Shown piece by piece: positions 18,064 to 39,959 of a stretch of DNA of 64,000 nt. Below the pieces are notes generated by a model. That model was not told the DNA's origin, made no database searches, and was given only the letters and a program-made list of their open reading frames with translations. How positions within the stretch are numbered: the first letter of the stretch is position 1; each line of letters begins with the position of its first letter. Source of the stretch: Bacillota bacterium (GTDB lineage Bacteria > Bacillota > DSM-12270 > Thermacetogeniales > Thermacetogeniaceae); assembly GCA_029907475.1 (NCBI GenBank), contig JARYLU010000013.1, positions 1 to 64,000 on the forward strand. The letters run 5' to 3'. Both the position numbers and the translations under genes were made by a program.

Positions 18064-19326
18064 TCAATCCTCTTCAGCAGTATCGGAGAAGAAGTTTTCG
18101 TCCTCTTCGAGGGTGCTGGCGACCAGATCTTCCGCTTCCGGAATAACCTCCTCATGGTACAGGTAGCAGATGTCCAGCGCCTCCAGGGTGGCCCTAATAC
18201 AGGTACGTACCGTGGGGCTATTAAGGTCATGCAACAACTTACCCACATTCAGGGAGGCGTCCCAGCCATAGGCCCGGCCGTGTATCAGGACCAGCTCCTC
18301 CAACAATCCTACCAGAGCCTCTTCGGTTACAGGCTTAATGATCGGGCACCGATCGCTGATAGTACCAATCTCAAAGAATTTCCCGATCTCATCCCGGGCA
18401 GTCTCCCCGAACTTTTCCAAAGCCAGTTCCGGCATCACTACCTCGTCATGCATCATGTTGGCCTTGACGCCTTTAACCTCTGTTGGATGCCACATCTCGT
18501 CGCGTAAGTTTTCAGCCGCGGCTGCTACTGTATAGATCGGGTAGCGCATGGTTCCCGACCAGTTGAGCAGCCAGTTCAGGTTGCGGTAAGCCTTGAGGCG
18601 GCTGATCTTGCCCAGCCTGCCGACCAGCTCCAGCTCATCGATCAGGATCACCCAGCCCCTGCAGCCGCAGAAGCAGATGGCGTCCGCCAACATTCCGAAC
18701 AAGGCGGTAGCGTCTTCACCGGCCTTGAAATTGCGCTCGAATCTGGGCATGGGCTGACCGCGGTAGACCTTGTGAATCCGCTTCAATTCACTGAGGGCGA
18801 CCTTTTCTCCCAGTAAGTAGCCATACAGCAGATCCTGCTCCTGGCCTTCAGCGTAAAAGTAATCCTCCAGGATGATCGCCGGCAGCGGGTGGCTGTAGCG
18901 CCCCGGCTTCATGATCTGGCTCTCCGGCAAGTCGGTGGCCTTTTTCTGATTGAGCTTGCGCTGCAGGCCGTAGACGGCGGAGTCCGGAGTACGCAGCAGC
19001 GGCGCCACCCGGCTGTAGAAATGACCCAGGTTGTGGCACGATACCTCCCGGCTCAGGGAGACCCGGCTCACCGCAAAACCCATCTCCAGGGCCAGGTGCT
19101 CGACGGTAGTCAGCACGTGGGTCTTGCCCTGACCGTAGCGTCCCCAGATCAGACGACCGGGTATGCCCTGCTCCTCACGGAGCAGTTCCAGGTCGTCCTG
19201 GATCATCTCTATCAGATCTTCTCTCAGCTCCGGCAGCGCCCTGGTAGAAACACGGGTCGGCACACCCGCCCGCAACGCCTCCACCACCCCCACCGCTTTC
19301 AGGCGCTCCTCATCGTAGGCGATCAT
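18064..19326 (-). CDS. BrxD-like (DUF2791-type) ATP-binding protein, second of pair
   Basis: 420 residues. Walker A is GRYGQGKTH (about residue 62) and Walker B is GWVILIDELEL (about 225). The spacing and flanks resemble the BREX ATPase BrxD and related DUF2791 proteins. VPTRVSTRALPELREDL at the start and an acidic C-terminus (STLEEDENFF) are also visible. The ATG at 19326 directly abuts the stop of the upstream ATPase gene. It shares only the ATPase framework with its neighbour, so the two probably form a hetero-oligomer. It is the last gene of the cassette. BREX types with BrxD also have PglZ nearby; this cassette has none of its own. Confidence 0.72.
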   Translation of the reverse strand: MIAYDEERLKAVGVVEALRAGVPTRVSTRALPELREDLIEMIQDDLELLREEQGIPGRLIWGRYGQGKTHVLTTVEHLALEMGFAVSRVSLSREVSCHNLGHFYSRVAPLLRTPDSAVYGLQRKLNQKKATDLPESQIMKPGRYSHPLPAIILEDYFYAEGQEQDLLYGYLLGEKVALSELKRIHKVYRGQPMPRFERNFKAGEDATALFGMLADAICFCGCRGWVILIDELELVGRLGKISRLKAYRNLNWLLNWSGTMRYPIYTVAAAAENLRDEMWHPTEVKGVKANMMHDEVVMPELALEKFGETARDEIGKFFEIGTISDRCPIIKPVTEEALVGLLEELVLIHGRAYGWDASLNVGKLLHDLNSPTVRTCIRATLEALDICYLYHEEVIPEAEDLVASTLEEDENFFSDTAEED

Positions 19327-20526
19327 CTATTCCCCCATCCTTTCCATCAGCAAGGCCGTTTCCATCACCCGTGCCCGCAGGTCGCTGTGGCCGCTCAGAT
19401 CCGGTAGTTCCCGGTAGCGGCGCCGGAACCCCGCTTCCTGCAGCAACTGGCTCAGCCTGGCTGCCACTTGTTGGGAAAAATCTTCCCCTTTTGCTTCATA
19501 AAGCAGATCGATATCCACAATGTCAGAGTATGGATTGAAGCGCTGTCCGCGCGCCAGGCCGGGATGCAGCCGCATCCAGAGCGCCTCGTAGCTCTGGAAG
19601 CCCCGCTTCACGTCCTCGACGATCTCCCTGCCCCCGGCCAGAATCAAAACAAATCCATGCAACAACTCGGTATCGTCGATCAGTTGCCTGAACAGTTCGC
19701 AGGTGTCCTTGACGGCATTACTCGTGTATAGATGCCGTCCGGTACCCGGCGCCGCCCTGGTTATCTCTTCGATGTCGTCGATCAGGACTACGAGCCCGGT
19801 CAGCCCGGCAGCGTTCAAGACCTGGATCAGCGAGTTCAACCAGGCCCGGGCGTTGGACTTCTGCAGCGTCTCAAAAAGGTTGGCAGACTTCTTCTCGGCC
19901 AGATTCAGCCTCCCGCCGCCCAGCCAGCGGAGCGCCGTCCTCAGTGGCTCATCCTGACCGTTAACCATCCTGGTGACGGTGGCCAGAAAACAGAAGGTGG
20001 TAAATGCCGGCCCGACGTCGAGGCCGCGAAAACACCGGCCGATGGCCGTCCTGATCTCCTTCATGGCATCACGGGCCGACCAGCCCTCCTTCTCCACCAA
20101 CAACGGCAGCAGGCGATCCGACCCGTCATACTCATCCTCACCATAACCCAGGTGTTCGGCCACGCGCCGGCACAGCCCGCGCACCAGCGCCTCCTTGTCG
20201 ATCTGCTCCACGATTGTCCGGTACAGGACCGGGAGATTGTTCAGGCGGTAGTCAATGTCCCGCAGTGATAGGTAGACCGCGGCGTAACCCAGTGCCCGGG
20301 CATCCTGCTCCACGCAGCGCAACAGGTGGGTCTTGCCGGTCCCCTTGCTGCCGACCAGCACCTTCACCTTGCTGCCGTGGCCGCGCCCGATAAAATTATA
20401 AAGATAATGCTCCTGGAAGCGGTCCAGCCAGTCAGCCCGCCCCTGCGTCATACCGGCCAGCAGTTCAGCGTTGGCAGGCGGGATGCCTGATTTCAGGTCT
20501 TCAAGATCGAGTTCGTCGATGCTCAT
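19327..20526 (-). CDS. BrxD-like ATP-binding protein, first of pair
   Basis: 399 residues. Walker A GSKGTGKTHLLR lies near residue 60 and Walker B LVVLIDDIEEI near 245. KVKVLVGSKGTGKTH and HLYTSNAVKDTCELFRQLID resemble DUF2791/BrxD-type AAA-like ATPases. LAGGREIVEDVKRGFQSYEALWMRL is a likely sensor region. ATG 20526 overlaps the upstream stop (ATGA), so translation is coupled. It is predicted cytoplasmic, with nucleotide-driven remodelling as the general family activity. Its biological target is unknown. Confidence 0.7.
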   Translation of the reverse strand: MSIDELDLEDLKSGIPPANAELLAGMTQGRADWLDRFQEHYLYNFIGRGHGSKVKVLVGSKGTGKTHLLRCVEQDARALGYAAVYLSLRDIDYRLNNLPVLYRTIVEQIDKEALVRGLCRRVAEHLGYGEDEYDGSDRLLPLLVEKEGWSARDAMKEIRTAIGRCFRGLDVGPAFTTFCFLATVTRMVNGQDEPLRTALRWLGGGRLNLAEKKSANLFETLQKSNARAWLNSLIQVLNAAGLTGLVVLIDDIEEITRAAPGTGRHLYTSNAVKDTCELFRQLIDDTELLHGFVLILAGGREIVEDVKRGFQSYEALWMRLHPGLARGQRFNPYSDIVDIDLLYEAKGEDFSQQVAARLSQLLQEAGFRRRYRELPDLSGHSDLRARVMETALLMERMGE

Positions 20527-21338
20527 GGCTGTGCCTCCTCCCGGCGTTCATTCTCCAGGTGGACGATCAGGCTGCTGAGCCGGCTTTCCCGGCCCTGGCT
20601 GTCAATCACCAGCAAGGCGTGGCCCTGGTTACGGGCAAAGCCGAATTCGAACCGGTAGCCCTGGTACCTGATCTCGAACTGTTCCTTCAGCCGTCCCAGG
20701 TCGTAGATATACAGCTCCTTCGGATACTCCTGCCGGGCAGAGCGGCGCACTGTCAACAGTTCGTAGATCGTGGTCAGCGACACCGCACGACCCCACAGCA
20801 CCTCGTTTTGCCGGTAGGCCATCCGGTTGCCGATCCGGTAGGCATCCAGCAATTCCCTGCAGAACTGCTGCGAGTCGAACTTCTTCTCCACCAGCTTCTT
20901 GTACCGGGCCGCCACCCAGGCGGCCACCTGCTGGGGGGCGAGGGCGAATGTCCGTTCGCTCTTACGGCCGACGGACAGGATCACCGCTTCCTGCCCGGGA
21001 TCTACAGTTAATTTGAAGGGGATCAATTCATACCTGGGATAGCTGCCCTGAATCGGTAGACCCGCCTCCCGCAGGGCTGTTTCCAAAGCGCCGGGGTAGT
21101 CGGCGCCCGCTACGTACTCCTGCTCTGCCTTCAGGGCATTGACAACCTCCGGCGTCATTTCCTCGTGCCTGGCTACCAGCAGCCTGGCGTCCTCACCCAA
21201 TGCTGCCAGCATCTTTTTCAAAGTCTTGAAGTCCCAATTCTCAACTGCTTTTTTGGTTATATTCAGGTTTTTAAGCAAGCGCTTGTCGATAGCCGCCAGT
21301 TCACCGATGGCCGCCTTGGCCGCCTGTAGATTCACCAT
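20523..21338 (-). CDS. unrecognised protein of the two-ATPase cassette
   Basis: 271 residues from ATG 21338 (GGAGGCTGG upstream). The N-terminus is helical and Lys/Ala-rich (1-80). After about residue 100 it becomes mixed alpha/beta with many aromatic and charged residues (YELIPFKLTVDP, SERTFALAPQQVAAWVAARYK, FEIRYQGYRFEFGFARNQG). There are no catalytic motifs, membrane segments or metal-binding cysteines that I can identify. It ends within the start codon of the first ATPase gene, so it is part of the same operon and probably the same complex. Confidence 0.65.
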   Translation of the reverse strand: MVNLQAAKAAIGELAAIDKRLLKNLNITKKAVENWDFKTLKKMLAALGEDARLLVARHEEMTPEVVNALKAEQEYVAGADYPGALETALREAGLPIQGSYPRYELIPFKLTVDPGQEAVILSVGRKSERTFALAPQQVAAWVAARYKKLVEKKFDSQQFCRELLDAYRIGNRMAYRQNEVLWGRAVSLTTIYELLTVRRSARQEYPKELYIYDLGRLKEQFEIRYQGYRFEFGFARNQGHALLVIDSQGRESRLSSLIVHLENERREEAQP

Positions 21339-21459
21339 GTTTATCCAGCCTCCAACTCCTGAAATATTTTTGCCTCTAAATCCTGAAGGCTTTTGCCTCC
21401 TATCCTCACCACATCACCGCCCGGTAATGCAAGCAACCGGGGAGCCAACAATCCCCCTT

Positions 21460-22584
21460 TCACCTGCTCCTGCCTTTATGCGATCTTGCCAGATCTTTCA
21501 CCAAACGCAGGACTGCCCTCTGGATGCCCGGGGTGAGTTCAACAAAGTAATCACAGAGTTCAAAGGTCAGTATTCCCGACTCCTGTCCCAGGGCTACAGG
21601 ACCTCCATCATCGTGATCGGTACCGCCGCGCCCGCAAGCGGGCACCCGCTCGTCGCCGCCGCGCCCGCAAGCGCGCCCAGAGGGCACCCGGCCGGGTCCG
21701 CGCCCGCCGGGTACCCGCTTTAGTGGGTGGGGCACCCACCGGGCGCGGTCATCTTCATCGCTTTCGTCATCGGCATCCTCATGTCCGCCACCTACAACAG
21801 CGCTCGATGTAACCGGACGCCTCTCGCCAGCCTCCACATCACTGCCCGGTAATCCCGAAGGGCTTGTCCACCTGACGCCCTGCTGCGCCTCCCGGTTCTG
21901 GACAGCCATGCTCCTCTTGACAGGCGCCGCCTGGTATGAAATTCCCCCCATCAACTGCAACCAGGCGCTGACGAGGCGCGCCTCCTCCTGCTGCACCAGT
22001 TGAACAGCGGTGTCGTAGTCGCCACGCTGTCGCAGCAGGGAGGCGCCGGATTCAACGTTCATGTAGCTCGGGGACAATAGGGCAGCATCGAGACTGGACA
22101 GGATCTCGGAGGAGGGGAGACTACTGCCGAGACGCTCGATCTGACTGAGGTAGGAGAACGAAACACCGCTTCGCTGCTCCAGTTGCCGGAGGGAGATGCC
22201 CTGACTATCGCGTAGCCGGGACAGGGTTTTGGCGATCCTGGCCTTGCACAGCAGTTCCAGAATTCCGGCCTCAAGACGTCCGAGATGGCTCTGCTTGAGA
22301 AGATTCATCCTGTTGACGGTGACACCGGCGCCGGAATGTGTTTCCATCTCCCGCACCACCCGCCTGTCATGCCTGCGGATGATCGCTGCCAGGCCGGCCA
22401 GCGTGGGTTCCGGGTCGAGACCGGCCTTCTTGTCGTTCGTCGCCGCCAGGCTGAGCTCCTTGAGGAATTGCTCGGCCGAAAAAACAGGCAAGGCATCTGA
22501 CGGGCAGTCGTTCTTATCCAATGCCTGTTGACATTTTTTCAGCCACTCTCTGAAGTTGAAGGCCAGCTTCTTAAGTTCGCCCAT
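21460..22584 (-). CDS. helix-turn-helix (XRE-like) protein with repeat-rich C-terminal region
   Basis: About 374 residues from ATG 22584; earlier in-frame starts up to 22716 exist. A helix-turn-helix of XRE type lies near residues 145-190 (LSRLRDSQGISLRQLEQRSG, VSFSYLSQIERLG). The preceding 130 residues are helical. The segment encoded by 21620-21765 is low-complexity (Gly, Arg, Pro) and corresponds to a GC-rich DNA repeat. A more normal stretch resumes at FELCDYFVELTPGIQRAVLRLVKDLAR. It heads the two-ATPase cassette and faces the BREX operon across a 750-bp gap, so it could regulate either or both. Confidence 0.65.
   Translation of the reverse strand: MGELKKLAFNFREWLKKCQQALDKNDCPSDALPVFSAEQFLKELSLAATNDKKAGLDPEPTLAGLAAIIRRHDRRVVREMETHSGAGVTVNRMNLLKQSHLGRLEAGILELLCKARIAKTLSRLRDSQGISLRQLEQRSGVSFSYLSQIERLGSSLPSSEILSSLDAALLSPSYMNVESGASLLRQRGDYDTAVQLVQQEEARLVSAWLQLMGGISYQAAPVKRSMAVQNREAQQGVRWTSPSGLPGSDVEAGERRPVTSSAVVGGGHEDADDESDEDDRARWVPHPLKRVPGGRGPGRVPSGRACGRGGDERVPACGRGGTDHDDGGPVALGQESGILTFELCDYFVELTPGIQRAVLRLVKDLARSHKGRSR
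21620..21765. repeat. GC-rich short-period repeat inside the HTH gene
   Basis: Imperfect repeats of CCGCCGCGCCCGCAAGCG and of GGGCACCCG/CGGGTACCCG units in both orientations, giving strong inverted repeats such as GTGGGTGGGGCACCCACC. It keeps the reading frame open but encodes Gly/Arg/Pro-rich sequence unlike the rest of the protein. This suggests a small palindromic repeat inserted in a coding region. Confidence 0.6.
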
Positions 22585-23338
22585 TTCCCCTCCAGTGCCC
22601 ATCAAACGTCCATGGTTTTTCATGCTACGGTGGATCATCTTTCTTGTTTCTTGCTGGCAATCCACCTGTCTCCCATGTTCGCCCCCAGTAGCTTGAGGGC
22701 TCCCGCAAAACAGCATCGCTAGATAGAAATCTTGTGCACTATGATCGTCTATTATATGTACACACTATCAGCAAACAGGTATACTTGTCAATACTTTCCT
22801 ATAAAATTTGCAGGGATCTAACTTCCGGTAGAAATTGGCCTCGCAGCCTAACTGCTCAAGCAGGGCCTTAAGAATGGGTTATCGTACTTGCTAGAAGCGA
22901 GGAGATAGTGTCTCTGGCAAGCCGTTTTGCCGAAGTTGTTCTGGAAAAATTGGGTGGCTGAAAATCTTAGTATGGGGCTTGAAAGGGGATTTACAAAATA
23001 AGGTAGTCTTGACACAATAAATCTAGACAGTCTAGATTGTTTGAGGCGAACACTATGAGTATGGAATGGCAACTTCGAGAAGCAATTAATCGGTTCAATT
23101 TGGAATTACTTATTGAGTGCAACCTGGGAAATCGAACCAGAGATTGAGATGGCTGCAGGTGAGCGATCAATTTGAAGAGATCATTGATAAAATGTTGCAG
23201 GATTATGGAGGAATTTGTAGAAAAAGGTATCAGCAACCAGATTACCTAGGATTTGAAACGAATGACCGGGGGGAAGTCATAGCCGAGGCCGAGGTTTCAA
23301 GGTTGCACACTTCGACGTTAGCGTTAGGAGAAATCAGA
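22585..23338. other. divergent control region between the two-ATPase cassette and BREX
   Basis: AT-rich compared with both flanks. It holds the BREX promoter and palindrome at 23009-23038. Downstream, a 30-codon frame starts at ATG 23055 and stops at 23147. A GTG frame from 23117 runs into brxF in phase; its first 74 codons are not typical of BrxF, so this part may be a leader or a decayed short gene. No other gene is supported. Confidence 0.5.
23009..23038 (+). promoter_or_regulatory. promoter of the BREX operon with overlapping 19-bp palindromic operator
   Basis: The -35 box TTGACA (23009-23014) is perfect; the best -10 is TAGATT (23033-23038) at 18-bp spacing. A perfect palindrome AATCTAGACAGTCTAGATT occupies 23020-23038, filling the spacer and covering the -10. 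This is the classical layout for repression by a dimeric helix-turn-helix protein. The HTH product encoded at 21460-22584 is the nearest candidate. Confidence 0.75.
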
Positions 23339-23830
23339 ATGGCAGAGCTACTTGCCGATCAGGTTATGCAAAAAATCATCCATGCAAATGAACTTTATTA
23401 CCGTCTTATAATATTGGCAGCACCAGCCGGCTCAGGAAAAACCGCAATACTCCAAGGAATTCAGGAACGGAAGGGCTACCCTCTGGTAAACGTTAACCTG
23501 GAACTTTCCCACCGCATGCTTGAACTTACCGAACGCCAGCGGGCACTACAGCTTCCTCGCTTACTTTCGGAAATCGTGAACGCTTCTGGCGGCGATGTAG
23601 TTCTGCTCGATAACATTGAATTGCTATTTGATGTGTCCCTCAAACAGGACCCGCTGCGGCTCCTCCAAGGACTTTCACGAAACAAGACGCTAGTCGTGGC
23701 CTGGAACGGATCTGCGGGCAGCGGCTACTTGACCTATGCCATGCCGGAACACCCTGAATACCGAAGATACGTAATCCGTGATTTGCTGATCGTTAGCCCG
23801 GAGAAATCAGAAGTGATGAGTGGAAAGTGA
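23339..23830 (+). CDS. brxF: BREX type 3 small P-loop ATPase BrxF
   Basis: 163 residues from ATG 23339 (TAGGAG 8 nt upstream), close to the usual BrxF length. GSGKT at 31-35 forms the P-loop, and [13 protein letters not shown] is the Walker B region. It is the first core gene of the BREX-3 order brxF-brxC-pglX-brxH-pglZ-brxA. The frame extends upstream to GTG 23117, but the added 74 residues are not expected for the family. The last codons fall inside an inverted repeat (23812-23885), so the natural C-terminus may have been altered slightly. Confidence 0.8.
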
Positions 23831-23885
23831 TGGGTGATGAGCAAAGGCACATACACTCATCACTCAGTCCTCATCACTCATCACT
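23812..23885. repeat. large imperfect inverted repeat between brxF and brxC
   Basis: Two arms of about 30 nt built from GTGATGAG units (AGTGATGAG..GTGATGAG and CTCATCACT..CTCATCACT) with a loop of about 14 nt. It covers the brxF stop codon and ends 31 nt before the brxC start. In RNA it would form a long hairpin. It resembles a miniature palindromic repeat that landed inside the operon. Confidence 0.75.
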
Positions 23886-23916
23886 TATGGGCAAAACCGC
23901 ATGGGGGGGGAACGCG

Positions 23917-26900
23917 ATGAAATATGGGGACTTAATCCAGTTCGAACCTATCGAGTCCGTAGTGCAATTGCGGGAAGCCGACAAAGCTACTGCCGCCCGG
24001 CAGCTTGTCCAGACCTATGTCATCTCCAAGGAGATGGCTGAGAGGCTGGTCAACCTCGTCATTCCCCAGCTTCAGTTTGATCAGCCGGTCGATAACAAGG
24101 GGCTTCTGGTCGTTGGCAACTACGGTACCGGCAAGTCTCATCTGATGTCGGTGATCTCCGCCGTAGCGGAGAACGGAGAGCTTTCTTCCCATCTCAACGA
24201 TAGCAACGTTGCCAGCGCAGCGGGGAAAATCGGAGGCTGTTTCAAGGTGGTGCGAACCGAAATTGGGGCGACCACTATGTCCTTGCGTGACATTCTAGTG
24301 GCCGAACTGGAGGAGCGCCTGGCGGCTTTAGGGGTGACCTATACATTCCCATCGGCGGCTCAATTATCCAACAATAAGCGGGCCTTCGAAGAGATGATGT
24401 CCGTTTTCCACCAGGAATACCCTGACCATGGCCTGCTCCTGGTGGTGGATGAATTGCTCGACTACCTCCGTACACGAAAAGATCAGGAACTCATCCTCGA
24501 CCTGAACTTCCTCCGGGAGGTCGGCGAAGTCTGCAAGGACCTGCGCTTTCGCTTTATCGCTGGTGTGCAGGAGGCCATCTTTGACAGCCCTCGCTTTTCC
24601 TTCGTGGCGGACAGTATCCGCCGGGTAAAGGACCGTTTCGAGCAAATCCTTATTGCCCGCAAGGACGTCAAATTCGTGGTATCCGAGCGGCTTCTCAAAA
24701 AAACCGGCGAACAGCAGGCGAAAATCCGCGCATACCTGACTCCCTTTGCAAAGTTCTACGGTCGCATGAATGAGCGCATGAACGAGTTTGTCCGCCTCTT
24801 CCCGGTGCATCCCGACTACATTGACACCTTTGAGCGGGTCACCGCAGTGGAGAAGCGCGAGGTGCTCAAGACCCTTTCCCTGTCCATGAAGAAGCTGCTC
24901 AATCAAGATGTCCCGGACGACCGCCCCGGGTTAATCGCCTACGACGGCTACTGGCTGAACCTTCGTGAAAACCCGTCCTTCCGCGCAGTGCCTGATATCA
25001 AGGCGGTAATCGATTGCAGCCAGGTGCTGGAGGCCCGCATTCAGCAGGCCTTCACCCGGCCCGCCTACAAGCCCATGGCGCTGCGGCTGATCCATGCCCT
25101 ATCCGTCCACCGGCTGACTACGGGCGATATCTATGCCCCCCTGGGCGCAACGGCGGAGGAACTGCGTGACAGCCTCTGCCTCTACCAGCCCGGAATCGAG
25201 GACTTAGGCGGCGACCCGGCTGATGATTTACTCTCCCAGGTGGAAACTGTCCTGCGGGAAATACACAAGACGGTAAGCGGCCAGTTCATCTCGTCGAACC
25301 CGGACAACCGCCAATATTACCTTGATCTGAAGAAGACTGATGACTACGACGCTTTAATCGAAAAGCGCGCAGATAGCCTGGATGACTCCCAGCTAGACCG
25401 CTACTACTACGAGGCCCTGAAACGGGTCATGGAGTGCACAGACCAGACCTACAGAACCGGCTATAAAATCTGGCAACACGAGCTTGAATGGCTGGAGCGG
25501 AAAGCCGCGCGCCAAGGGTACCTCTTTTTCGGCGCGCCCAACGAGCGCTCCACAGCCGTTCCGCCACGCGACTTCTACCTCTATTTCATCCAGCCCTTCG
25601 ATGCGCCGCGCTTCACGGATGAAAAGAAGCCTGACGAGGTATTCCTACGTCTTATAAACAAGGATGAAGCCTTTCACACAGCACTGCGGAGCTATGCCGC
25701 AGCCCTTGATCTGGCTTCCACCGCCTCGGGCCATGCCAAGTCCACCTATGAATCCAAGGCGTCGAGCTTCCTGCGGGAATTGGTGCAGTGGCTAAAGGAA
25801 AACATGATTACGGCCTTCGAGGTTAACTATCAGGGACGTGCCAAGCCCCTTATTGATTGGGCCAAGGGGAAATCAATCCGGGAACTGTCTGGTATTGCCC
25901 TTAACGAGCGGATCAACTTTCGCGACCTCATCAACACCATCGCCGGTATCTGTCTCGGGGCGTATTTCCAGGACCAGGCTCCTGAATACCCCTGCTTCTC
26001 GGTGCTCATCACCGGAGCCAACCGGGTGCAGGCTGCCCAGGACGCTCTGCGGGCCATCGCCGGGCAAAAGCCGACCAAGCAGGCAACCGCAGTGCTGGAT
26101 GCCCTTGAACTTCTTGACGGCGATAAACTTGATCCGTACCGGTCGAAATACGCCCAGCACATCCTCGACATTGCGAAAAAGAAGGGCCATGGCCAAGTGG
26201 TCAACCGTTCCGAGCTTATCCAGGACATCCTTGGGGTGGAATACCTTGCCCCAAAGACCTTGCGTCTCGAGCCCGAATGGGCCGTGGTGGTCCTGGCGGC
26301 ACTGGTTTACTCTGGAGAGCTGGTGCTGGCCATTCCAGGCAAGAAGTTCGACGCCACAGGGCTTCCCCAACTGGCCGGAACCGGCATCGAGGAACTGGCC
26401 CTGTTCAAGCACATCGAGCGGCCTAAAGACTGGAACCTACCGGCCCTTAAGGCCTTGTTTGAGCTGCTCGGGCTTACACCGGGCATGGCGCAGCTGGTTA
26501 CCCAGGGGAAAGAAGAGCCTGTTCATGAGCTGCAGAAAGCAGTAACCAGCACGGTGGATAGGTTGGTGCTTGTTCAGCAGAGCGTGCACAAAGGACTGTC
26601 CTTCTGGGGCCGGAGTTTGCTGGCCGAGAGTGAAGCCCAGAAGCTGCGCTCCCAGCTTAATGAGACCAAGGCCTTTCTGGAATCAATCCAGGTCTATACA
26701 TCTCCCGGCAAGCTCAAGAACTTCCGTTACGAAGCCCAGGAGGTAAGCAGGCATCACGACGGGCTTCAGGTCTTGGAAGAGATTGATTCCCTCCAGAAAC
26801 TAGTAACTGACCTCGGGGTCACAGCAGCATATCTTTCCACGGCCGAGGCGGTCCTGCCCAGCGGGCATGAGTGGATCGATAAGATGAAGGCGGTGCGTGA

Positions 26901-27645
26901 CGAGGTCCTCGGACAGATCAGCGATCCGTCCAAGCGTGGCACGGTAGCCTTCCGCCAGGAGACTCAGCGCAAGCTCTCTGACCTGAAAAAAGCCTACCTG
27001 CAGGCGTACCTGGGCCTGCATACCAAGGCGCGGTTGGGCGTCAACGAGGATAAGCGCAAGGCCAAGCTCATGGGGGATGAACGTTTGAAAGTCCTGCAAA
27101 AACTCTCCACTATCGACCTTATGCCCCGCCAACACCTGACCGATTTCCAGAACCGTCTGGCGGGTCTCAAGAGCTGCTTCGCAATCACCGAGCCGGAGCT
27201 TGACGCCTCGCCCGTGTGCCCGCATTGCAGTTACAAGCCTGCCGCAGAACCACCGGCGGCACCAGCAAGCTCGGTCCTGGACGGTCTGGATGACGAGCTC
27301 GACAAACTGGTAGAGAACTGGACCCAGACGCTTCTTACCAACCTGGAGGACCCGACTACACGGGCCAACTTGGATCTGCTCAAGCCCGAGCCGCGGAAGC
27401 TGGTGGACGGCTTCATCAAAAAGCGCTCGCTACCGGACGACCTTGACCAGGATTTCATCCACGCCCTGCAGGAGGTGCTCTCCGGGCTGCTCAAGGTATC
27501 GGTAAAGACTGCCGACCTGCGCGCAGCGCTGCTCGCTGGCGGCTCACCGGTCACCCCGGCGGAGATGAAGAAGCGATTTGAGGAATACCTGGACGAGCTC
27601 ACCAGGGGGAAGGAGCCCGGCAAAGTACGGATCGTACTCGAATAG
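23917..27645 (+). CDS. brxC: BREX type 3 large ATPase BrxC (DUF6079-like)
   Basis: 1242 residues from ATG 23917 behind a run of eight G; the frame opens earlier at 23827, but only across the inverted repeat. Walker A is GNYGTGKSH (about 67-75) and Walker B is [13 protein letters not shown] (about 173). Long helical regions follow. One C-x2-C pair is present near 1100 (VCPHCSYKP). BrxC is the giant ATPase essential for BREX defence and for BREX methylation in characterised systems. Size and position match type 3. It precedes pglXI by 11 bp. Confidence 0.9.
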
Positions 27646-27656
27646 GAGCGGTTGAC

Positions 27657-30440
27657 ATGACTAAGGAGTATTTTGAACAGAACCTTTTTGAAACGCAGAC
27701 TTCCGCTAAGCCGCTGGGCCCGGTGGAATGCCTGGGGATGACCTTTGAGAGCGACGAGAAGCGCCGGGAATATTTCCTAGAGAAGTTGCGAGAGAAGCTT
27801 AAGGACCCGGAGTTCCGCAAGATCGAGGGATTCCCCATTGGCTCGGACGAGGACATCCTGGCTCTGTCCGACCCGCCGTACTATACCGCTTGCCCAAACC
27901 CGTTTATCGAGGATTTTATAAGATACTACGGTAAACCCTTTGATCCGGCGACGGATAGCTACCGGCGCGAGCCGTTCGCTGCGGACGTGAGCGAGGGAAG
28001 GTATTCTCCTGAAACTCTTTGCCATTCATATCATACAAAGGTTCCAGCTAGGGCAATTGTACGATATTTACTTCACTTTACTAATCCTGGGGACATTGTT
28101 CTTGATGGTTTTTGCGGAACGGGTATGGTAGGAGTAGCAAGCCATCTTTGCTCAAGTCCTGATGCGGATTTTCGAAACGAAATTGAAGCCGAGTGGCACA
28201 ATCTCTTCGGTTGCTTTCCGGAATGGGGAAAACGGAGAACGATTCTTGCAGACCTTTCACCGGCAGCAACATTCATTGCCTACAATTATAACCTTCCTGT
28301 CGACGCTAACGCTTTCGCTACACTATCCAGGGCTATCATAGAGCAGGTAAATTCTGAGTGTGGATGGATGTACGAGACTGTTGACCCCCAAAACAACCGG
28401 AAAGGGAGGATAAATTACTGTGTATGGTCTGACGTCTTCTTTTGCCCAGATTGCAGTAGGGAGGTTGTCTTCTGGGATGCCGCAGCGGATCTAGAAAATG
28501 GCCAAGTGCGTTCCGTAATTAAGTGCCCATACTGTAATTCGGAGATAACGAAAAGGAATCTCGAACGTGTTTGGGTAACCACTTTCGATGATGTTCTTGG
28601 GCTGCCAATTGAGAAGGCGAAATGCATACCTGTGTTGATCAACTATACGCTAGACGGAAAGAGGTTCAACAAAACGCCAGATGAAAAAGATCATGACGTT
28701 ATAGCCCGTATTAACAGTGAACCCATACCATATCGTTTTCCTAGTGAGAAGATGGTCTTGCGTGACGGGATATGGGGAGACCAGTGGAGGGCGGGATACC
28801 ATAAAGACGTCACTCATGCGCACCACTACTATACAAGGCGCAATGTCCGAATCCTTGCTGCGTTTTGGGAAAAGGCAATTCACCACATCCACGATGTTGG
28901 CATGGGAATGTTGTTAACGGCAACTGCTCTTAAGCTAAGCCGACTTTCACGATATATGTTTGATGCTGCCGGAAGAATTCAAAACGGAGTGTTATATATA
29001 CCGTCTCTTCACCAAGAGATGTCACCTCTTCTTCTACTTGATACAGCGGTCAACTATATTTTCCGCTTTCGTTCAAGTGTTAATATTGACAGATCCTGCT
29101 ATGTGTCATGTGGCAGTACAACAGATGTCAGAACGTGTCCATCGAATGCGATTGACTACATATTTACCGATCCTCCCTTTGGTGACAACCTGAAATATTC
29201 GGAACTTAACTTCCTTTGGGAGTCATGGTTACGTCTCTATACAAATACAAATCCAGAGGCAGTTGAAAGCAAAATTCAAGGGAAACGGCTGATCGATTAC
29301 CAAGAATTGATGGTTAAGTGTTTTCAAGAATACTATCGCGTGTTGAAACCCGGCCGATGGTTAACCGTTGAATTTCACAATTCGCGGAATGCCGTCTGGA
29401 GCGCAATTCAAGAGGCCCTAATTAGGGCAGGATTTGTAGTTGCAGATGTTCGAGGGCTCGACAAAAGGCAAGGAGCGTTTAATCAGGTTATGGCCGCAGG
29501 CTCTGTTAAACAGGATTTGGTAATTTCTGCTTACAAGCCCAACGGAGGCCTAGAGGATCGTTTCAAACTCACGGCTGGTACCGAGGATGGTGTCTGGGAC
29601 TTCGTCCGCACGCACCTGAAGCAGCTTCCGGTCTTCGTTTCCAAGGACGGCGTAGCCGAGGTCATTGCCGAGAGGCAGAACTATCTGCTGTTTGACCGCA
29701 TGGTGGCCTTCCACGTTCAGCGCGGGGTAACTGTGCCGTTATCGGCAGCGGAATTCTACAAAGGGTTGGTTCAGCGTTTCCCCGAGCGAGATGGCATGTA
29801 TTTTCTTCCCGATCAGGTTGCCGAGTACGACAAGAAGCGCATGACTGTGCGTGAGGTCTTGCAGCTTCAGCTTTACGTAACCGATGAGTCTTCGGCTATC
29901 CAATGGCTCAAGCAACAGCTTACGAAAAAGCCGCAGACTTTCCAGGAACTCCATCCGCAGTTCCTCAAGGAGATCGGCGGCTGGCAGAAGCACGAGAAGC
30001 CACTGGAGTTATCCGAGTTGCTGGAACAGAACTTCCTGTGCTATGACGGTAAGGGCGAAGTGCCCAGCCAGATTCACAGCTACCTGTCCACCAACTTCAA
30101 GGAACTGCGCAACCTGCCCAAAGACCATCTGGATCTCCGCGCAAAGGCCAAGAACCGCTGGTACGTGCCCGACCCAAACAAAGCTGGCGACCTGGAAAAG
30201 CTACGCGAGCGGGCCCTACTACGTGAGTTTGAGGAGTACCGTGAATCAAAGCAGAAGCGGCTCAAGGTGTTCCGCATGGAGGCCGTCCGCGCCGGGTTCA
30301 AAAAGGCCTGGCAGGAGCGTGACTACGCCACAATCATTAGCGTGGCTCGCAAGATTCCCGAGAACGTCCTCCAGGAAGACCCAAAGCTTCTTATGTGGTA
30401 TGACCAGGCGCTCACCAGAATTGGAGATAACCAATTCTAG
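27657..30440 (+). CDS. pglXI: BREX type 3 DNA methyltransferase PglXI
   Basis: 927 residues from ATG 27657 (AGGAGCGG upstream). There is an N-terminal SDPPYYTACPNPF motif at 71-83 and the SAM-binding DIVLDGFCGTGM at about 147-158. A zinc-ribbon-like pair CPDC..CPYC lies near 262-300, and a second catalytic-type motif FTDPPFGDNLKYSELN near 500. It is predicted to place the host-protecting methyl group at the BREX recognition site. Base composition is mosaic: about 27990-29570 is clearly AT-richer than either end of the gene, suggesting replacement of the central, probably specificity-determining part. Confidence 0.88.
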   Translation: MTKEYFEQNLFETQTSAKPLGPVECLGMTFESDEKRREYFLEKLREKLKDPEFRKIEGFPIGSDEDILALSDPPYYTACPNPFIEDFIRYYGKPFDPATDSYRREPFAADVSEGRYSPETLCHSYHTKVPARAIVRYLLHFTNPGDIVLDGFCGTGMVGVASHLCSSPDADFRNEIEAEWHNLFGCFPEWGKRRTILADLSPAATFIAYNYNLPVDANAFATLSRAIIEQVNSECGWMYETVDPQNNRKGRINYCVWSDVFFCPDCSREVVFWDAAADLENGQVRSVIKCPYCNSEITKRNLERVWVTTFDDVLGLPIEKAKCIPVLINYTLDGKRFNKTPDEKDHDVIARINSEPIPYRFPSEKMVLRDGIWGDQWRAGYHKDVTHAHHYYTRRNVRILAAFWEKAIHHIHDVGMGMLLTATALKLSRLSRYMFDAAGRIQNGVLYIPSLHQEMSPLLLLDTAVNYIFRFRSSVNIDRSCYVSCGSTTDVRTCPSNAIDYIFTDPPFGDNLKYSELNFLWESWLRLYTNTNPEAVESKIQGKRLIDYQELMVKCFQEYYRVLKPGRWLTVEFHNSRNAVWSAIQEALIRAGFVVADVRGLDKRQGAFNQVMAAGSVKQDLVISAYKPNGGLEDRFKLTAGTEDGVWDFVRTHLKQLPVFVSKDGVAEVIAERQNYLLFDRMVAFHVQRGVTVPLSAAEFYKGLVQRFPERDGMYFLPDQVAEYDKKRMTVREVLQLQLYVTDESSAIQWLKQQLTKKPQTFQELHPQFLKEIGGWQKHEKPLELSELLEQNFLCYDGKGEVPSQIHSYLSTNFKELRNLPKDHLDLRAKAKNRWYVPDPNKAGDLEKLRERALLREFEEYRESKQKRLKVFRMEAVRAGFKKAWQERDYATIISVARKIPENVLQEDPKLLMWYDQALTRIGDNQF

Positions 30441-30467
30441 TCTAAGATAAGATAGGAGGAAGTAGTT

Positions 30468-31085
30468 ATGGGAGATTTTCCTTACACCACCGTGCCCGGA
30501 AAGATTTCGGATCTTTTTGCGAAAATCAAACAAACCGGTATCCCTCCCAAAGTAAACCTTCAATGGCTTCAAAGCGTGGGATTCAAATCAAGTAACGATA
30601 GAAGTTTACTCACTGTCCTAAGAACTGTTGGTTTCGCTGATTCTATAGGTAGTCCGACTGACCTTTGGAAGCAATATCGAGGTCAAGGCGGAAAACAGGT
30701 ATTAGCGAAAGGTATACGCGAGGGGTATGCAGAGTTGTTTTCGACTTATCCGCACGCACATGCTTGTTCAAAAGAAGATCTTCAATACTTTTTCTCAACG
30801 CGATCATCTGCGGGAAAACAAGCTATTGCAAAGACGATTTCCACATTTCAGGAGCTATGCAAGCTTGCGGATTTTAGCGCTAGCTCTCCAGAAGACGAAG
30901 CAGTCGAAAAGGAGCAAGATACTAAGTCACGCGACGTAGGGTCGAACACGCGGGAAATGAAATCACTTAGAGATTTTGCTATCAACATCAACATACAGCT
31001 CACTCTCCCGGAGACAACGGATGAGAAAGTATATGAAGCGTTGTTTTCGAGCATGAAGAAACATTTGCTCACGGGAGAGATCTAG
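30468..31085 (+). CDS. DUF5343-like protein inserted in the BREX operon
   Basis: 205 residues from ATG 30468 with AGGAGGAAG upstream. FPYTTVPGKISDLFAKI, then GIPPKVNLQWLQSVGFKSSNDRSLLTVLRTVGF and DLWKQYR match the hallmark pattern of DUF5343 proteins, a small, probably wHTH-like family of unknown function common in defence regions. The C-terminus (about 135-205) is a polar linker and a short beta/alpha segment. It lies between pglXI and a HEPN-like gene, 1 bp from the latter. It is not part of the standard BREX-3 core. Confidence 0.72.
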   Translation: MGDFPYTTVPGKISDLFAKIKQTGIPPKVNLQWLQSVGFKSSNDRSLLTVLRTVGFADSIGSPTDLWKQYRGQGGKQVLAKGIREGYAELFSTYPHAHACSKEDLQYFFSTRSSAGKQAIAKTISTFQELCKLADFSASSPEDEAVEKEQDTKSRDVGSNTREMKSLRDFAININIQLTLPETTDEKVYEALFSSMKKHLLTGEI

Positions 31086-31086
31086 C

Positions 31087-31623
31087 ATGCTTGAAATTGT
31101 CCGTCAATTTCAATATCGTGCTCTCTGTTTTCAGCAGGATGCTCATTCCTTGCTTTCAAGGCATGAGGATACGCTATCACGTGTGATTGCGCTTGATAAA
31201 ACCCGCAAACGAATAAGCAGCCTTTCACTTAGTCAGAAATCTCTGCTCGAAGAAGCAGTCTTAAGCATTGAAAGAGGCTGTTTTCGGGCTGCGCATGTTA
31301 TGGCATGGGCTGCATTTATCGATTATTTGGAGGAAAAACTCGCGTCAGATAATCTTAAGGCAATCAAGGCAAAAAGAACGGGCTGGGCGCAATACAAGAG
31401 CATTGAGGAATTACGAGAGAATGTTGTGGAATACCAGTTGATTGGGGTCGCCAAAGATGTTGGTTTGCTGTCAAAGACGGAGATGAAGACATTGCATGGT
31501 TTGCTGGCGAAAAGGAATGAATGTGCACATCCAAGTCATCATAATCCGGACATGAACGAAGCGATCGGCTATGTTAGTGAGTTGTTAAATCGTATCGATA
31601 GGCTTGAGAAGAAAAGCCTGTGA
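31087..31623 (+). CDS. HEPN-like protein with R-x4-H motif, paired with DUF5343
   Basis: 178 residues, nearly all helical. R143-N-E-C-A-H148 gives the R-x4-6-H catalytic signature of HEPN ribonucleases, and RGCFRAAHVMAWAAFIDYLEEKL is typical of the preceding helices. It starts 1 bp after the DUF5343 gene and ends 12 bp before brxHII, so it is cotranscribed with BREX. HEPN proteins often cleave RNA in abortive defence, while others are inactive or bind nucleotidyltransferases; activity here is inferred from the motif only. AT-rich compared with brxHII. Confidence 0.7.
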   Translation: MLEIVRQFQYRALCFQQDAHSLLSRHEDTLSRVIALDKTRKRISSLSLSQKSLLEEAVLSIERGCFRAAHVMAWAAFIDYLEEKLASDNLKAIKAKRTGWAQYKSIEELRENVVEYQLIGVAKDVGLLSKTEMKTLHGLLAKRNECAHPSHHNPDMNEAIGYVSELLNRIDRLEKKSL

Positions 31624-31635
31624 GGGAATAAAAAA

Positions 31636-34479
31636 GTGCATTACAATGACTGGTACTACAGCCCGGACCACGGGCAGCTCTGTCAGGTTATCGAAACCCA
31701 GACTCTCTGGGGGGAAACTACCTGCCGCGTGTGGTTGCCCGGCAGTGACTCTGTGGTCCGTGTCCCGGCTTCCAGGCTTAAGCCTTTGGATAGCGCTAGT
31801 ATCGGCTCGCCGGACGACATTGCCTACGTGGCTACCGCCGCACGGGTGGTTGATGCGCTGGCCGAGGACGTGCTGCTTGCACCCATCGAATCCTCCGTCA
31901 TTCCGCTACCGCACCAAATCCGGGCCCTCTCGCGCGCTATCTCTAACGACCGCGTGCGCTATCTCCTGGCGGACGAGGTGGGCTTGGGTAAGACCATTGA
32001 GGCTGGGCTCATCATGCGGGAGCTTAAGCTGCGTGGGCTGGTGAAACGGACACTGGTTATCGCTCCGAAGGGGCTTGTGACCCAGTGGGTCAGCGAAATG
32101 CGCTTCCATTTCGGGGAAACCTTTCAGCTTGTTCTCCCCGAAGATTTGAAAACATTGAAGCACATCGGGCCGGTCTCGGGCTTAATCTACGAGGAGCACG
32201 GCAGTCGTGATTCAGAACTCCTGCTTGCCAATGCCTGGCGGATGTTCTCCCAGGTGGTCGTACCAATGGACTCTGTAAAGCCACTCGACAAGCGCCGTGG
32301 ATGGACTGCAGCCCAAGTGGAAGACTACAACCGGGAGCGTTTCGAGGACCTGATTTCTGCGGGCTGGGACCTGGTCATCGTGGACGAAGCGCACCGCCTG
32401 GGCGGGAGCACCGACCAGGTGGCCCGTTTCAAGCTAGGCCAGGGATTGTCGGAAGCAGCGCCATACTTACTACTTCTTTCGGCCACCCCTCATCAGGGTA
32501 AGACCGACGCCTTTTACCGGTTGGTATCCCTTCTTGATTCCCAAGCTTTCCCGGACATCAGCAGCGTTACGCGGGAGCGGGTCCAGCCGTATGTCATACG
32601 GACCGAAAAACGCTGCGCTATCGACGCTGAAGGAAAACCGCTGTTCAAACCCCGGCTTACGCAGCTTGCCCCGGTCTCCTGGGAAGCGCGGCACCGTAAT
32701 CAGCAACTCCTTTACGAGGCCGTCACGGAGTATGTCCGCGAGGGATATAACCAGGCCATACGGGAAAAGCGGAGCTATATCGGGTTCATGATGATCTTGA
32801 TGCAGCGCCTGGTGGTGTCCAGTACGAGCGCAATCCGAACGACGCTGGAGAAGCGGCTTGAAGCGCTTTCCGTTCCCCAGGAGCAATTATCCATTTTCCC
32901 TCTTTACTCCGAAGAGGAATGGGCCGAACTGGACGGCCAGGAGCAGTTGGAAACGCTGCCATATACCCGCCTCAGGGCGCTCAAAAACGAGCGTGCCGAG
33001 GTGAAAATGCTTTTGGAAGCTGCGGCTCGATGTGAGCAGACCGGGCCCGATGCCAAAGCCGAAGCGCTGCTTGATTGGATATACCGCCTTCAGGCTGAGG
33101 AAGGCGATCCCGAACTCAAGGTACTCGTGTTCACTGAGTTCGTCCCCACGCAGGAGATGCTGCGGCAATTCTTAAGCGAGCGGGGGTTCGCGGTAGTCTG
33201 TCTCAATGGCTCCATGGATATGGAGGAACGGAAGCGGGTTCAGGAAGCATTTGCCCACGAGGCTCGCATCCTCATCTCCACGGACGCTGGTGGGGAAGGC
33301 TTGAATCTTCAGTTCTGCCATGTGGTAATCAACTACGATATTCCCTGGAACCCGATGCGTCTCGAACAAAGGATCGGCCGGGTGGACCGTATCGGTCAGA
33401 CGCATACTGTTCGCGCGGTCAACTTCGTATTCGAGCATTCTGTGGAACACCGGGTACGGGAGGTTCTGGAGCAGAAGCTGGCAGTCATCTTCGAAGAGTT
33501 CGGCATCGACAAAACCGGCGATGTTCTTGATTCGGCCCAGGCCGGACGAATGTTCGATGAACTATATGTGGAGGCGATTCTAAATCCCGACAAGGTCGAA
33601 GAATCCGTGGATAACGTGGTTACACGACTTCAAGAACAGGTAAGAGATGCCCGCGAGGCTGCATTGGTGCTAGGAACATCGGAAGACCTGGGCCCAGGGG
33701 AAGCCCAACGGCTTCTTACCCATCCCTTGCCCCATTGGGTAGAGCGCATGACCGTGAGCTACCTGAAGGCACACGGTGGCAGGGCCGAAAGGAAAGACCG
33801 AAACTGGAACCTTACCTGGCCTGATGGCAAAACTTACTCGGGAGTGGTCTTCACTGGTAAAGAGGCCGAAGAAATTCCAGCCGCCCGCCATCTTACCCTG
33901 GAAGACCCAAAGGTCAGAGGTTTGGCGATGCGTCTTCCCCGCTTTGTTCCGGGGCAGCCGGTTCCGATTGTGTCGATCCCAGGAGTCGCCCGGGAAATAC
34001 AAGGGGTTTGGTCCCTTTGGCGGATCTCTATCGCTACTTCGGAGTGGAGCCGTAAGAGCATCATGCCGCTCTTTCTTGCCGACAGCGGCAAGGTTTATAC
34101 ACCAACAGCCAGGCATATCTGGGATCAGCTACTGGTAGCTGACCCAACCGTCCACTCTGTGCTTGACGGCAAATTTTCTCAAGATGCCTTTGCGCAACTG
34201 CAAGAGGCAGCCGAGAAACACGGGAAGCCCATTTACGAGGCGCTCATGCAAGAACACAGGGCTCGCATCGCCCGCGAGCGAGAGAAAGCGGAATACGCCT
34301 TTGCGGCACGGCACAAAGCCATACAGCGAATCGGCCTCCCGCAGGTCCGCAGTTACCGTCTGAACCTCCTTGCCCAGGAAGAACAAAACTTTTTAGAGCA
34401 ACTAGAGCATAGAGCCCAAGCCTATCCCGAAATGGTACCTCTACTCCTGATTCGTGTGGAGGGTGGCAGTCATGAGTAG
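31636..34479 (+). CDS. brxHII: BREX type 3 helicase BrxHII
   Basis: 947 residues from GTG 31636. SNF2-like superfamily 2 motifs in order are LADEVGLGKTIEAG (near 112), VDEAHRLGG (near 249), LLSATPHQGK (near 276), the C-terminal lobe with STDAGGEGLNLQ, and QRIGRVDRIGQ near 576. A long C-terminal region (620-947) with charged coiled segments follows. BrxHII is the helicase specific to BREX type 3. It overlaps pglZ by 8 bp (ATGAGTAG). GC content is higher than in the preceding DUF5343/HEPN pair. Confidence 0.9.
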   Translation: MHYNDWYYSPDHGQLCQVIETQTLWGETTCRVWLPGSDSVVRVPASRLKPLDSASIGSPDDIAYVATAARVVDALAEDVLLAPIESSVIPLPHQIRALSRAISNDRVRYLLADEVGLGKTIEAGLIMRELKLRGLVKRTLVIAPKGLVTQWVSEMRFHFGETFQLVLPEDLKTLKHIGPVSGLIYEEHGSRDSELLLANAWRMFSQVVVPMDSVKPLDKRRGWTAAQVEDYNRERFEDLISAGWDLVIVDEAHRLGGSTDQVARFKLGQGLSEAAPYLLLLSATPHQGKTDAFYRLVSLLDSQAFPDISSVTRERVQPYVIRTEKRCAIDAEGKPLFKPRLTQLAPVSWEARHRNQQLLYEAVTEYVREGYNQAIREKRSYIGFMMILMQRLVVSSTSAIRTTLEKRLEALSVPQEQLSIFPLYSEEEWAELDGQEQLETLPYTRLRALKNERAEVKMLLEAAARCEQTGPDAKAEALLDWIYRLQAEEGDPELKVLVFTEFVPTQEMLRQFLSERGFAVVCLNGSMDMEERKRVQEAFAHEARILISTDAGGEGLNLQFCHVVINYDIPWNPMRLEQRIGRVDRIGQTHTVRAVNFVFEHSVEHRVREVLEQKLAVIFEEFGIDKTGDVLDSAQAGRMFDELYVEAILNPDKVEESVDNVVTRLQEQVRDAREAALVLGTSEDLGPGEAQRLLTHPLPHWVERMTVSYLKAHGGRAERKDRNWNLTWPDGKTYSGVVFTGKEAEEIPAARHLTLEDPKVRGLAMRLPRFVPGQPVPIVSIPGVAREIQGVWSLWRISIATSEWSRKSIMPLFLADSGKVYTPTARHIWDQLLVADPTVHSVLDGKFSQDAFAQLQEAAEKHGKPIYEALMQEHRARIAREREKAEYAFAARHKAIQRIGLPQVRSYRLNLLAQEEQNFLEQLEHRAQAYPEMVPLLLIRVEGGSHE

Positions 34480-36478
34480 CTGGCGCGATGAAATCCTCAA
34501 GGAGTTTACCCCCAAGGTCACACGGCTCACCCTTGTGGCCGACCCGGACGCTCTTCTGCTGGAGGAAAGAATTCTCGAAAGCATTCGGAATCGGGGCTTT
34601 GAGGTGATTACCTTCGAAGATCATGTCGCTTTCCGCTATGCCTATGAATCGAAGTTCCGTTCCCTCTGGGACAGGGGCGAACAGACGGACCTCGTGGTTG
34701 TATTGCGAGCCCAGGCCAGCGATTTGAGCTCTTTGCCGTTTGATCTGCTGCAAGCGGGTCGTAGGCTCTCTTTTAGCCTTAGCGACATATTCCCTAATCT
34801 CAGCTACCCGGTTGTAACAACCTTGGACCGTGGTGACCTTGATGCCTTATATGATGCCCAGAGAAGACACGCGCCTGGACAGCTCGGGGACAACGCCACA
34901 AAGGAGTTCGTTCTCCGGCACGTCTTCGAAATCGCACCCGAGCTCATCAAGCAGCCATCCGACCTGCTCCGCGTGCTGCTTCGGCGCCATTACCGTGGAC
35001 AGCGCGTACCGGGCGTTCTCGACGAACGCTTCATCCAACTTCTACGCCAATATAATACCTTTGACGACTGGCCGTTGGAAACTATCGTCCCGGATCGGGA
35101 GGCTTTCTTTACGTTTCTCCAAGAGCGCTGGCCGGTCTTTCTCGACCATATGGTGGAAAAAAGGGAAACTACTGTGCGGGAGGATAAAAAATCGTACGGC
35201 TTAGCAATCGACGGTCCCCTCGATCTGCCCTTTGACCACCATGACATTCGGGTTTACATGGACAACCTGTTCCTGGAGGGGTTTTTACATTCCGTATCCC
35301 ACGAGCATGTGGATACGCTTTCTAAGACCTGGGTGAGCATAGGTGTTCAAACCGATAAAGCTGAAGACAGACACTGTCGCCTAACAAAGCTCATCGATAG
35401 TCTTCAGTCCTCCATTCCAGCCGAAGATGCTAGACACGGGGAGTGGTTCCATTTTGCCCGTGGGTGGGCTAAACTTACTCTAATGGCCCATGAACAGGAA
35501 AACACCATCGAAGGAGAGGTAATTCAAAGCTTTAAAAGCCTGCAAAATCAGGTGGATACCTCGTTCACCTCATGGCTGATCAGGCGATACGCCGGGCTTA
35601 TCAACCTTCCACCTGTCCCCCCGGTCATGCTTCACCACCTTCCGCGGTTTCTGGCACGTTGTGCGGGGGAGGCCCGCAACACTAAGATCGCCCTGCTGCT
35701 TGTAGATGGGCTTTCACTTGACCAATGGATTGTTGTTCGAGAGACGCTGGCAGCGCGGCGACCCAATTTCCGCTTTCGTGAAAACACCATATTTGCATGG
35801 ATTCCATCGATCACATCGGTATCACGTCAGACTGCTTTCGCCAGTAAGCCTCCCATCTTTTTCCCGGACAGCATCCAAACCACCGATAAAGAACATGCCC
35901 TATGGACGCAGTTCTGGACGGATCAAGGGTTTTCCTTAAACGAGGTTGTTTACGCCAAAGGGTTGGGTGACGGTAGTTTAGAGCGCATCGAGGACATGAT
36001 CTCCTATCCTAAGGTGAAAGTTGCTGGTCTGGTTATCGACAAGGTAGACAAAATTATGCATGGTATGGAATTAGGGACTGCTGGCATGTATAATCAAGTA
36101 CGTCAGTGGGTACAGCAACCTTACTTGGCTGAGCTTCTGGATCTCCTGCTGGATCGAGGTTTTCATGTTTTCCTGACTTCCGACCACGGGAATATTGAAG
36201 CTGAAGGTTGTGGATGTCCTGCTGAAGGGGCGGTGGCTGATCTGCGCGGGGAGCGGGTCCGCATCTATTCCGACAAGCTGCTTCGGGATAAGATAAAAGA
36301 GCGTTTTCCAGCCGCTTTCGAATGGCAACCGGTAGGCTTACCGGATACCTTCCTTCCTCTTATTGCCCCGGCTCGGCAGGCATTTGTTCGCGAGGGAGAA
36401 CGTATTGTTAGTCACGGCGGCATCTCCATTGAAGAAATTATCATTCCTCTTATCCAGATCGAAAGGATGGACACATGA
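34472..36478 (+). CDS. pglZ: BREX type 3 alkaline-phosphatase-fold protein PglZ
   Basis: 668 residues from ATG 34472 with GGAGGG upstream. The PglZ domain occupies the C-terminal half: ALLLVDGLSLDQW (near 408) carries the first metal-binding Asp, and FLTSDHGNIEAEG (near 568) has the Asp-His pair of the alkaline phosphatase superfamily. The N-terminal half begins DEILKEFTPKVTRLTLVADPDALL. PglZ is the one gene found in all BREX types and anchors this assignment. It overlaps the last gene by 4 bp. Confidence 0.9.
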   Translation: MSSWRDEILKEFTPKVTRLTLVADPDALLLEERILESIRNRGFEVITFEDHVAFRYAYESKFRSLWDRGEQTDLVVVLRAQASDLSSLPFDLLQAGRRLSFSLSDIFPNLSYPVVTTLDRGDLDALYDAQRRHAPGQLGDNATKEFVLRHVFEIAPELIKQPSDLLRVLLRRHYRGQRVPGVLDERFIQLLRQYNTFDDWPLETIVPDREAFFTFLQERWPVFLDHMVEKRETTVREDKKSYGLAIDGPLDLPFDHHDIRVYMDNLFLEGFLHSVSHEHVDTLSKTWVSIGVQTDKAEDRHCRLTKLIDSLQSSIPAEDARHGEWFHFARGWAKLTLMAHEQENTIEGEVIQSFKSLQNQVDTSFTSWLIRRYAGLINLPPVPPVMLHHLPRFLARCAGEARNTKIALLLVDGLSLDQWIVVRETLAARRPNFRFRENTIFAWIPSITSVSRQTAFASKPPIFFPDSIQTTDKEHALWTQFWTDQGFSLNEVVYAKGLGDGSLERIEDMISYPKVKVAGLVIDKVDKIMHGMELGTAGMYNQVRQWVQQPYLAELLDLLLDRGFHVFLTSDHGNIEAEGCGCPAEGAVADLRGERVRIYSDKLLRDKIKERFPAAFEWQPVGLPDTFLPLIAPARQAFVREGERIVSHGGISIEEIIIPLIQIERMDT

Positions 36479-39140: not shown

Positions 39141-39237
<97 letters not shown>

Positions 39238-39251
39238 GCGCAAGCGTAATT

Positions 39252-39809: not shown

Positions 39810-39840
39810 GCTCGCTTCTTCTCAAAACTCATTGAGTAAA

Positions 39841-39917
39841 TGGCGCGCCCGGAGGGACTCGAACCCCCGACACGCGGTTTAGGAAACCGCTGCTCTATCC
39901 ACCTGAGCTACGGGCGC
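39841..39917 (-). tRNA. tRNA-Arg (anticodon CCT)
   Basis: Stem GCGCCCG/CGGGCGC, D arm TAGCTCAGGTGGATAGAGC, anticodon loop TTCCTAA (CCT, reads AGG), T arm GGGGGTTCGAGTCCC, encoded CCA. Confidence 0.96.
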
Positions 39918-39959
39918 AGAAAAAAATAAAACACATGTTAGTGACATTTATGGATAAAA

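Follow-up and report, generated by a model that had tools for sequence, protein, structure and literature searches.

The stretch of DNA considered here (the window) comprises 64,000 nucleotides of contig JARYLU010000013.1, positions 1 to 64,000 of the forward strand, from a member of the Thermacetogeniaceae (Bacillota; assembly GCA_029907475.1). It contains a compact cassette of four minus-strand genes, coding for a helix-turn-helix (HTH) protein, a protein that we call U and two P-loop ATPases, A2 and A1, which lies head to head with a type 3 bacteriophage exclusion (BREX-3) operon. Three of these genes, in the order U-A2-A1, constitute a real, recurrent and unnamed module, which joins two ATPases akin to BrxD and SngB to a new protein family and is not a part of BREX-3. 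The genes of the cassette and the elements upstream of them are as follows:

18064-19326, minus strand: A1, 420 residues, a BrxD-like AAA+ ATPase, possibly of the origin recognition complex (ORC)-Cdc6 type, with Walker A GRYGQGKTH and Walker B LIDELEL.
19327-20526, minus strand: A2, 399 residues, a second BrxD-like ATPase, with Walker A GSKGTGKTH.
20523-21338, minus strand: U, 271 residues, an N-terminal helical hairpin plus an alpha/beta domain; proposed adaptor.
21460-22584, minus strand: HTH protein of the HTH_3 family, encoded by the leading gene of the operon; putative autoregulator.
22757-22791, minus strand: probable sigma-70-type promoter of the cassette, with TTGACA at 22791-22786 and a -10 region just downstream.
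23020-23038, no strand: perfect palindrome of 19 bp, AATCTAGACAGTCTAGATT, which overlaps the -10 region of a candidate BREX-3 promoter; a neighbouring element, outside the cassette.

The initial annotation had described four overlapping or closely spaced minus-strand genes, including two BrxD-like P-loop ATPases and an unrecognised 271-residue protein, which have no PglZ or methylase of their own and stand back to back with a type 3 BREX, and this description was borne out. All four genes are present at the positions listed above, with a 4-nt overlap between U and A2 and no gap between A2 and A1, and the BREX-3 genes all belong to the divergent operon. The start of the HTH gene was set at 22584, where it is preceded by a GGAGG site and where the MGELK start is kept in relatives; the longest open reading frame begins at 22716. 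Chance open reading frames can be excluded because U, A2 and A1 are conserved, with 71-79% identity and in the same order, in relatives for which no BREX-3 was found. No helicase was found among the four cassette genes, and no nuclease, toxin or other killing domain was recognisable in U, A1, A2 or the HTH protein.

Profile searches of an even draw of 398 genomes from the phylum revealed 17 full-length copies of U in 16 genomes and 17 loci for A2, at 398-537 bits with the next score at 89. These are the same 17 loci, each with A1 next in an unchanged order. When two classes were sampled more densely, U was present in 29 of 113 genomes of one and 9 of 83 of the other. At each of the 49 loci with all three genes legible, they stand on a single strand in the order U-A2-A1 (17 of 17 from the phylum sample and 32 of 32 further ones). 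Three loci are incomplete: L192 and L209 lie at contig ends, and in L191 a truncated U stands beside type I-B cas genes and is followed by a Card1-like endonuclease gene, with no ATPases. The three proteins also co-vary: their pairwise distances over 44 loci correlate at r = 0.975-0.984, against a permutation maximum of 0.19, values that are inflated because the genomes come from one phylum and include near relatives. Taxa beyond the phylum were covered only through a plasmid collection, and no phage or plasmid carriage of window-type U was found. Because an all-clade alignment of U offered no sufficiently conserved stretch, a contig scan was based on a closer subset, which yielded 5 loci.

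The earlier view of the four genes as a single unit thus stands for the U-A2-A1 core, whose genes recur together elsewhere, and falls for the HTH gene, which is clade-specific. The tested libraries gave no match of the cassette to a named defence system, and no description of the trio was found in the open literature, which omits most subscription papers and preprints.

Both ATPases match the Pfam family PF10923 (BrxC_BrxD), with 60.7 bits for A1 and 85.0 bits for A2 against a gathering score of 22.2. Their scores for the BREX_BrxD equivalog NF033438 (45.4 and 92.1 bits, respectively) are far under the curated cut-off of 350, and in the phylogenetic tree A1 and A2 form monophyletic families of 16 and 17 members, each fully supported and apart from BrxD and SngB; membership of BrxD itself was therefore rejected. 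The AlphaFold2 model of A1 (predicted local distance difference test score, pLDDT, 86.3) has many ORC/Cdc6 proteins among its top PDB matches, with probabilities of 0.91-1.00, E-values of about 1e-3 and above and template-modelling (TM) scores of 0.28-0.44. The A1 Walker A motif is retained at every locus with a readable N-terminus, the scan having left the A1 of L194, one long open reading frame, unresolved. The A2 Walker A motif is lost in the clade associated with CRISPR-Cas operons and in the SNF2 helicase clade of L046, L047 and L180, which likely represents two separate losses because these clades are not sister groups in the tree. As far as the motifs indicate, one active and one dispensable ATPase would be consistent with an ORC-like hetero-assembly. 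The A1 gene of Thermosyntropha lipolytica (L039, 2618-3873) is split across two overlapping frames, possibly through a frameshift.

Protein U of the window has no match in Pfam, PADLOC 2.0.0 or NCBIfam; likewise, an alignment of 17 members gave no credible Pfam match, and the distant U proteins of L127 and L125 gave none in PADLOC. Its AlphaFold model (pLDDT 88.8) consists of a long N-terminal helical hairpin followed by an alpha/beta domain, for which a fold search of the PDB and of viral models returned no match at E <= 0.001. At positions conserved in 80% or more of the family, most residues are hydrophobic or structural, the charged ones being D213, R216 and E251, and this pattern suggests that U may act as an adaptor rather than an enzyme. 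Two further loci (L109, 7303-11998; L110, 8495-14978) carry three tandem BrxD-like ATPases behind a protein of 278-299 residues, followed in L110 by a BrxHI/SngC-like helicase. These proteins may be distant versions of U, a relation that is only suggestive (hhalign E 0.0016, probability 16%).

The type of gene adjoining the trio follows the trio tree, with 8 label changes against a shuffled mean of 25, a pattern that the window by itself does not reveal. One clade is embedded in cas operons of types I-A, I-B and I-D and shares their strand. It includes a second, diverged trio in the window's own genome (L007; G000:C27, 4709-7723), arranged in a type I-B order as cas3-U-A2-A1-two small genes-cas1, as well as L037 (I-A), L012 (I-D), L177 (I-B) and L176 (a type with Csc2 and a split Cas3). 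Three of the CRISPR operons with the trio also encode small DUF4282 membrane proteins (L037, 10480-10848; L012, 9889-10248; L176, 10270-10674). At other loci the neighbour is a divergent PbeA-like superfamily 2 (SF2) helicase (L040-L043, L175, L201-L206), a superfamily 1 (SF1) AAA_11/AAA_12 helicase with a topoisomerase-type zinc ribbon (14 SF1-clade loci in the tree, of which some are truncated at contig ends), an SNF2 helicase (L046, L047, L180 and also L178, whose place in the tree is with the CRISPR clade) or BrxL (L045, L198).

Plasmids of Desulfomonile tiedjei and Aulosira laxa, from other phyla, carry the set U-ATPase-ATPase-DEAD helicase, and the Desulfomonile U matches that of the window at E 7e-10. 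Such distant versions of the trio adjoin BrxHI/SngC-like helicases, that of Desulfomonile matching SngC. Immediately before the Aulosira set come genes whose annotations are alkaline-phosphatase-domain protein, ATP/GTP-binding protein and DEAD helicase; we read them as a type 2 BREX. An HTH gene on the Desulfomonile plasmid had no match to the HTH of the cassette.

The HTH protein (HTH_3 match at 3.4e-8) is confined to one clade, consisting of the window and two relatives, L008 and L010; clear matches occurred in only 3 of 20 genomes of the family, the same three that carry the cassette. Upstream of the gene, the TTGACA and a downstream TGTGTA block are conserved in the window, L008 and L010, consistent with a conserved promoter. 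The HTH protein may regulate its own operon. The palindrome AATCTAGACAGTCTAGATT occurs once in the window and has no copy upstream of the cassette in the relatives or at cassette promoters, and regulation of BREX-3 by the cassette HTH was rejected on this ground.

The BREX-3 operon (23117-37245), divergent from the cassette, is complete, with BrxF, BrxC, PglXI, two extra genes, BrxHII, PglZ and BrxA; the PADLOC model for its helicase covers BrxHI and BrxHII alike, and the type 3 context is our reason for naming it BrxHII. The complete four-gene cassette is present at L008 and L010 (71-79% identity to the window for U, A2 and A1, 55-61% for HTH) with no BREX on their contigs, and their genomes, G014 (98% complete) and G013 (84% complete), yielded no BREX-3 BrxC. 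The same-genus genome G003 has a BREX-3, and no U or cassette was found in it. Among the 49 loci read, BREX-3 adjoins the trio in the window only. Between an independent system and an add-on to BREX-3, both of which had been envisaged initially, these occurrences argue for independence.

Several other features concern this operon, its flanks and the rest of the genome. Its two extra genes (30468-31085 and 31087-31623) lie between pglXI and brxHII, the first matching the PADLOC candidate PDC-M34A, and a PDC-S01 candidate gene occupies its far end (37519-38970). A gene 52% identical to the latter (L110, 6873-8315) stands, in another genome, beside the locus with three ATPases and a DEAD helicase. 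The window's genome has a second BREX-3-type BrxC, split into two adjacent pieces (L131, G000:C14). Five tRNA genes (Ser, Arg; 39143-40260) just past the defence island mark a possible integration hotspot.

We propose, with a probability of roughly 0.5, that the cassette is an autonomous, HTH-regulated operon carrying one version of a widespread trio that serves as an ORC-like loader or adaptor for helicase-type defence motors. In such a mechanism, A1 and A2 would assemble on DNA as an AAA+ complex resembling ORC/Cdc6, which U, presumably a non-enzymatic coiled-coil protein, would hold together or direct, and ATP hydrolysis, mainly by A1, would load, license or remodel a defence motor, giving the complex an anti-phage function. 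The motors served in related loci could be Cas3, SF1, SF2 or SNF2 helicases, or BrxL. The trio of the window would have to borrow its motor in trans, for which BrxHII next door is a candidate that is not conserved with the cassette, or else act alone, because no motor is adjacent in its clade.

Several observations weigh against this proposal. No helicase is adjacent to the trio in the window, L008 or L010, in their near relatives L038 and L039, or in L207 and L208, and no PbeA-like partner was found elsewhere in G013 or G014, the other genomes of the HTH clade. The likeness of A1 to ORC/Cdc6 is modest and partly common to AAA+ proteins generally. The trio also adjoins cas1 in CRISPR operons, where it may have a role in spacer acquisition.

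An alternative is a self-contained anti-phage system without a helicase, in which the ATPase pair would sense phage DNA or replication intermediates and block replication or trigger abortive infection, with the HTH protein as autorepressor. The stand-alone HTH-U-A2-A1 operon and its promoter are conserved in three genomes with no adjacent motor, L038 and L039 lack one too, and G013 and G014 yielded no PbeA-like partner elsewhere; however, most other trio clades keep a helicase-type gene alongside, and the four proteins have no recognisable killing domain. We consider such a system unlikely.

It is more doubtful still that the trio is a DNA replication or repair module, acting in origin licensing or plasmid maintenance and hitch-hiking into defence islands. 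The putatively ORC/Cdc6-like ATPases, the many loci without another recognised defence gene nearby and the plasmid-borne version of Desulfomonile would all accord with housekeeping of this kind, but the patchy distribution (18 of 398 in the phylum sample, and 29 of 113 and 9 of 83 in the two classes) fits defence better, as do the association with three type I CRISPR subtypes, the BrxL and restriction neighbours and the second copy within a cas operon of the same genome.

It is very improbable that the cassette serves the adjacent BREX-3, for example by loading BrxHII, with co-regulation from the divergent intergenic region: despite the head-to-head arrangement, the description of BrxHII as a Swi2/Snf2 helicase (PMC12839542) alongside a trio clade paired with SNF2 helicases, and the distant Aulosira set behind BREX-like genes, the cassette occurs in two genomes of the family where no BREX-3 BrxC was found, BREX-3 occurs in the same genus without the cassette, the pair is seen once in 49 loci, and no cassette promoter has a copy of the palindrome that overlaps the candidate promoter of BREX-3.

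Taking the loader proposal further, we tentatively suggest that prokaryotic immunity has in this trio a portable AAA+ loader not recognised before, one that works with at least five kinds of motor (Cas3, SF1, SF2, SNF2 and BrxL) and has become an integral part of three type I CRISPR subtypes as an accessory, with U as the founder of a new protein family; we hold this joint reading to be rather less than an even bet. Scattered genes annotated as 'BREX ATP-binding domain' are here joined with an unannotated protein into one recurrent unit, for which U provides a sequence signature missing from the tested libraries. The unit hints at a loading step shared by BREX-like, Shango-like and type I CRISPR systems, which are otherwise treated as unrelated, and raises the question of whether the Cas3 of these type I systems needs an ORC-like loader.

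Comparison with known systems helps to place the module. Like the accessory genes of type I CRISPR-Cas, one clade of the trio lies within I-A, I-B and I-D cas operons; unlike them, U belongs to no cas family of PADLOC or NCBIfam, and the same trio also occurs outside CRISPR. Type 3 BREX adjoins the cassette divergently in the window, shares no core component with it and is not conserved together with it. Shango, an established anti-phage system (PMC10250203) composed of SngA (TerB), the SngB ATPase and the SngC helicase, resembles the trio in its order of scaffold, BrxD-like ATPase and helicase (loci L114-L118), whereas the trio has two ATPases rather than one, both outside SngB, and no TerB protein. 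Membership of Shango was rejected: U has no Pfam TerB match and compares with TerB at an hhalign E of 0.71, and the cassette has no SngC-type helicase.

BrxD has been described as an AAA+ protein of the ORC-Cdc6 type with a close link to BrxHI, which it may load (PMC12839542). This dyad of type 2 BREX and the trio have in common the PF10923 ATPase domain, the association with SF2 helicases and possibly the ORC-Cdc6-type AAA+ architecture. They differ in that the trio has two ATPases in separate families, protein U and motors of many kinds, and no PglZ or BrxC of its own. By analogy, we propose that the trio would extend the idea of BrxD loading BrxHI to a portable loading or licensing complex.

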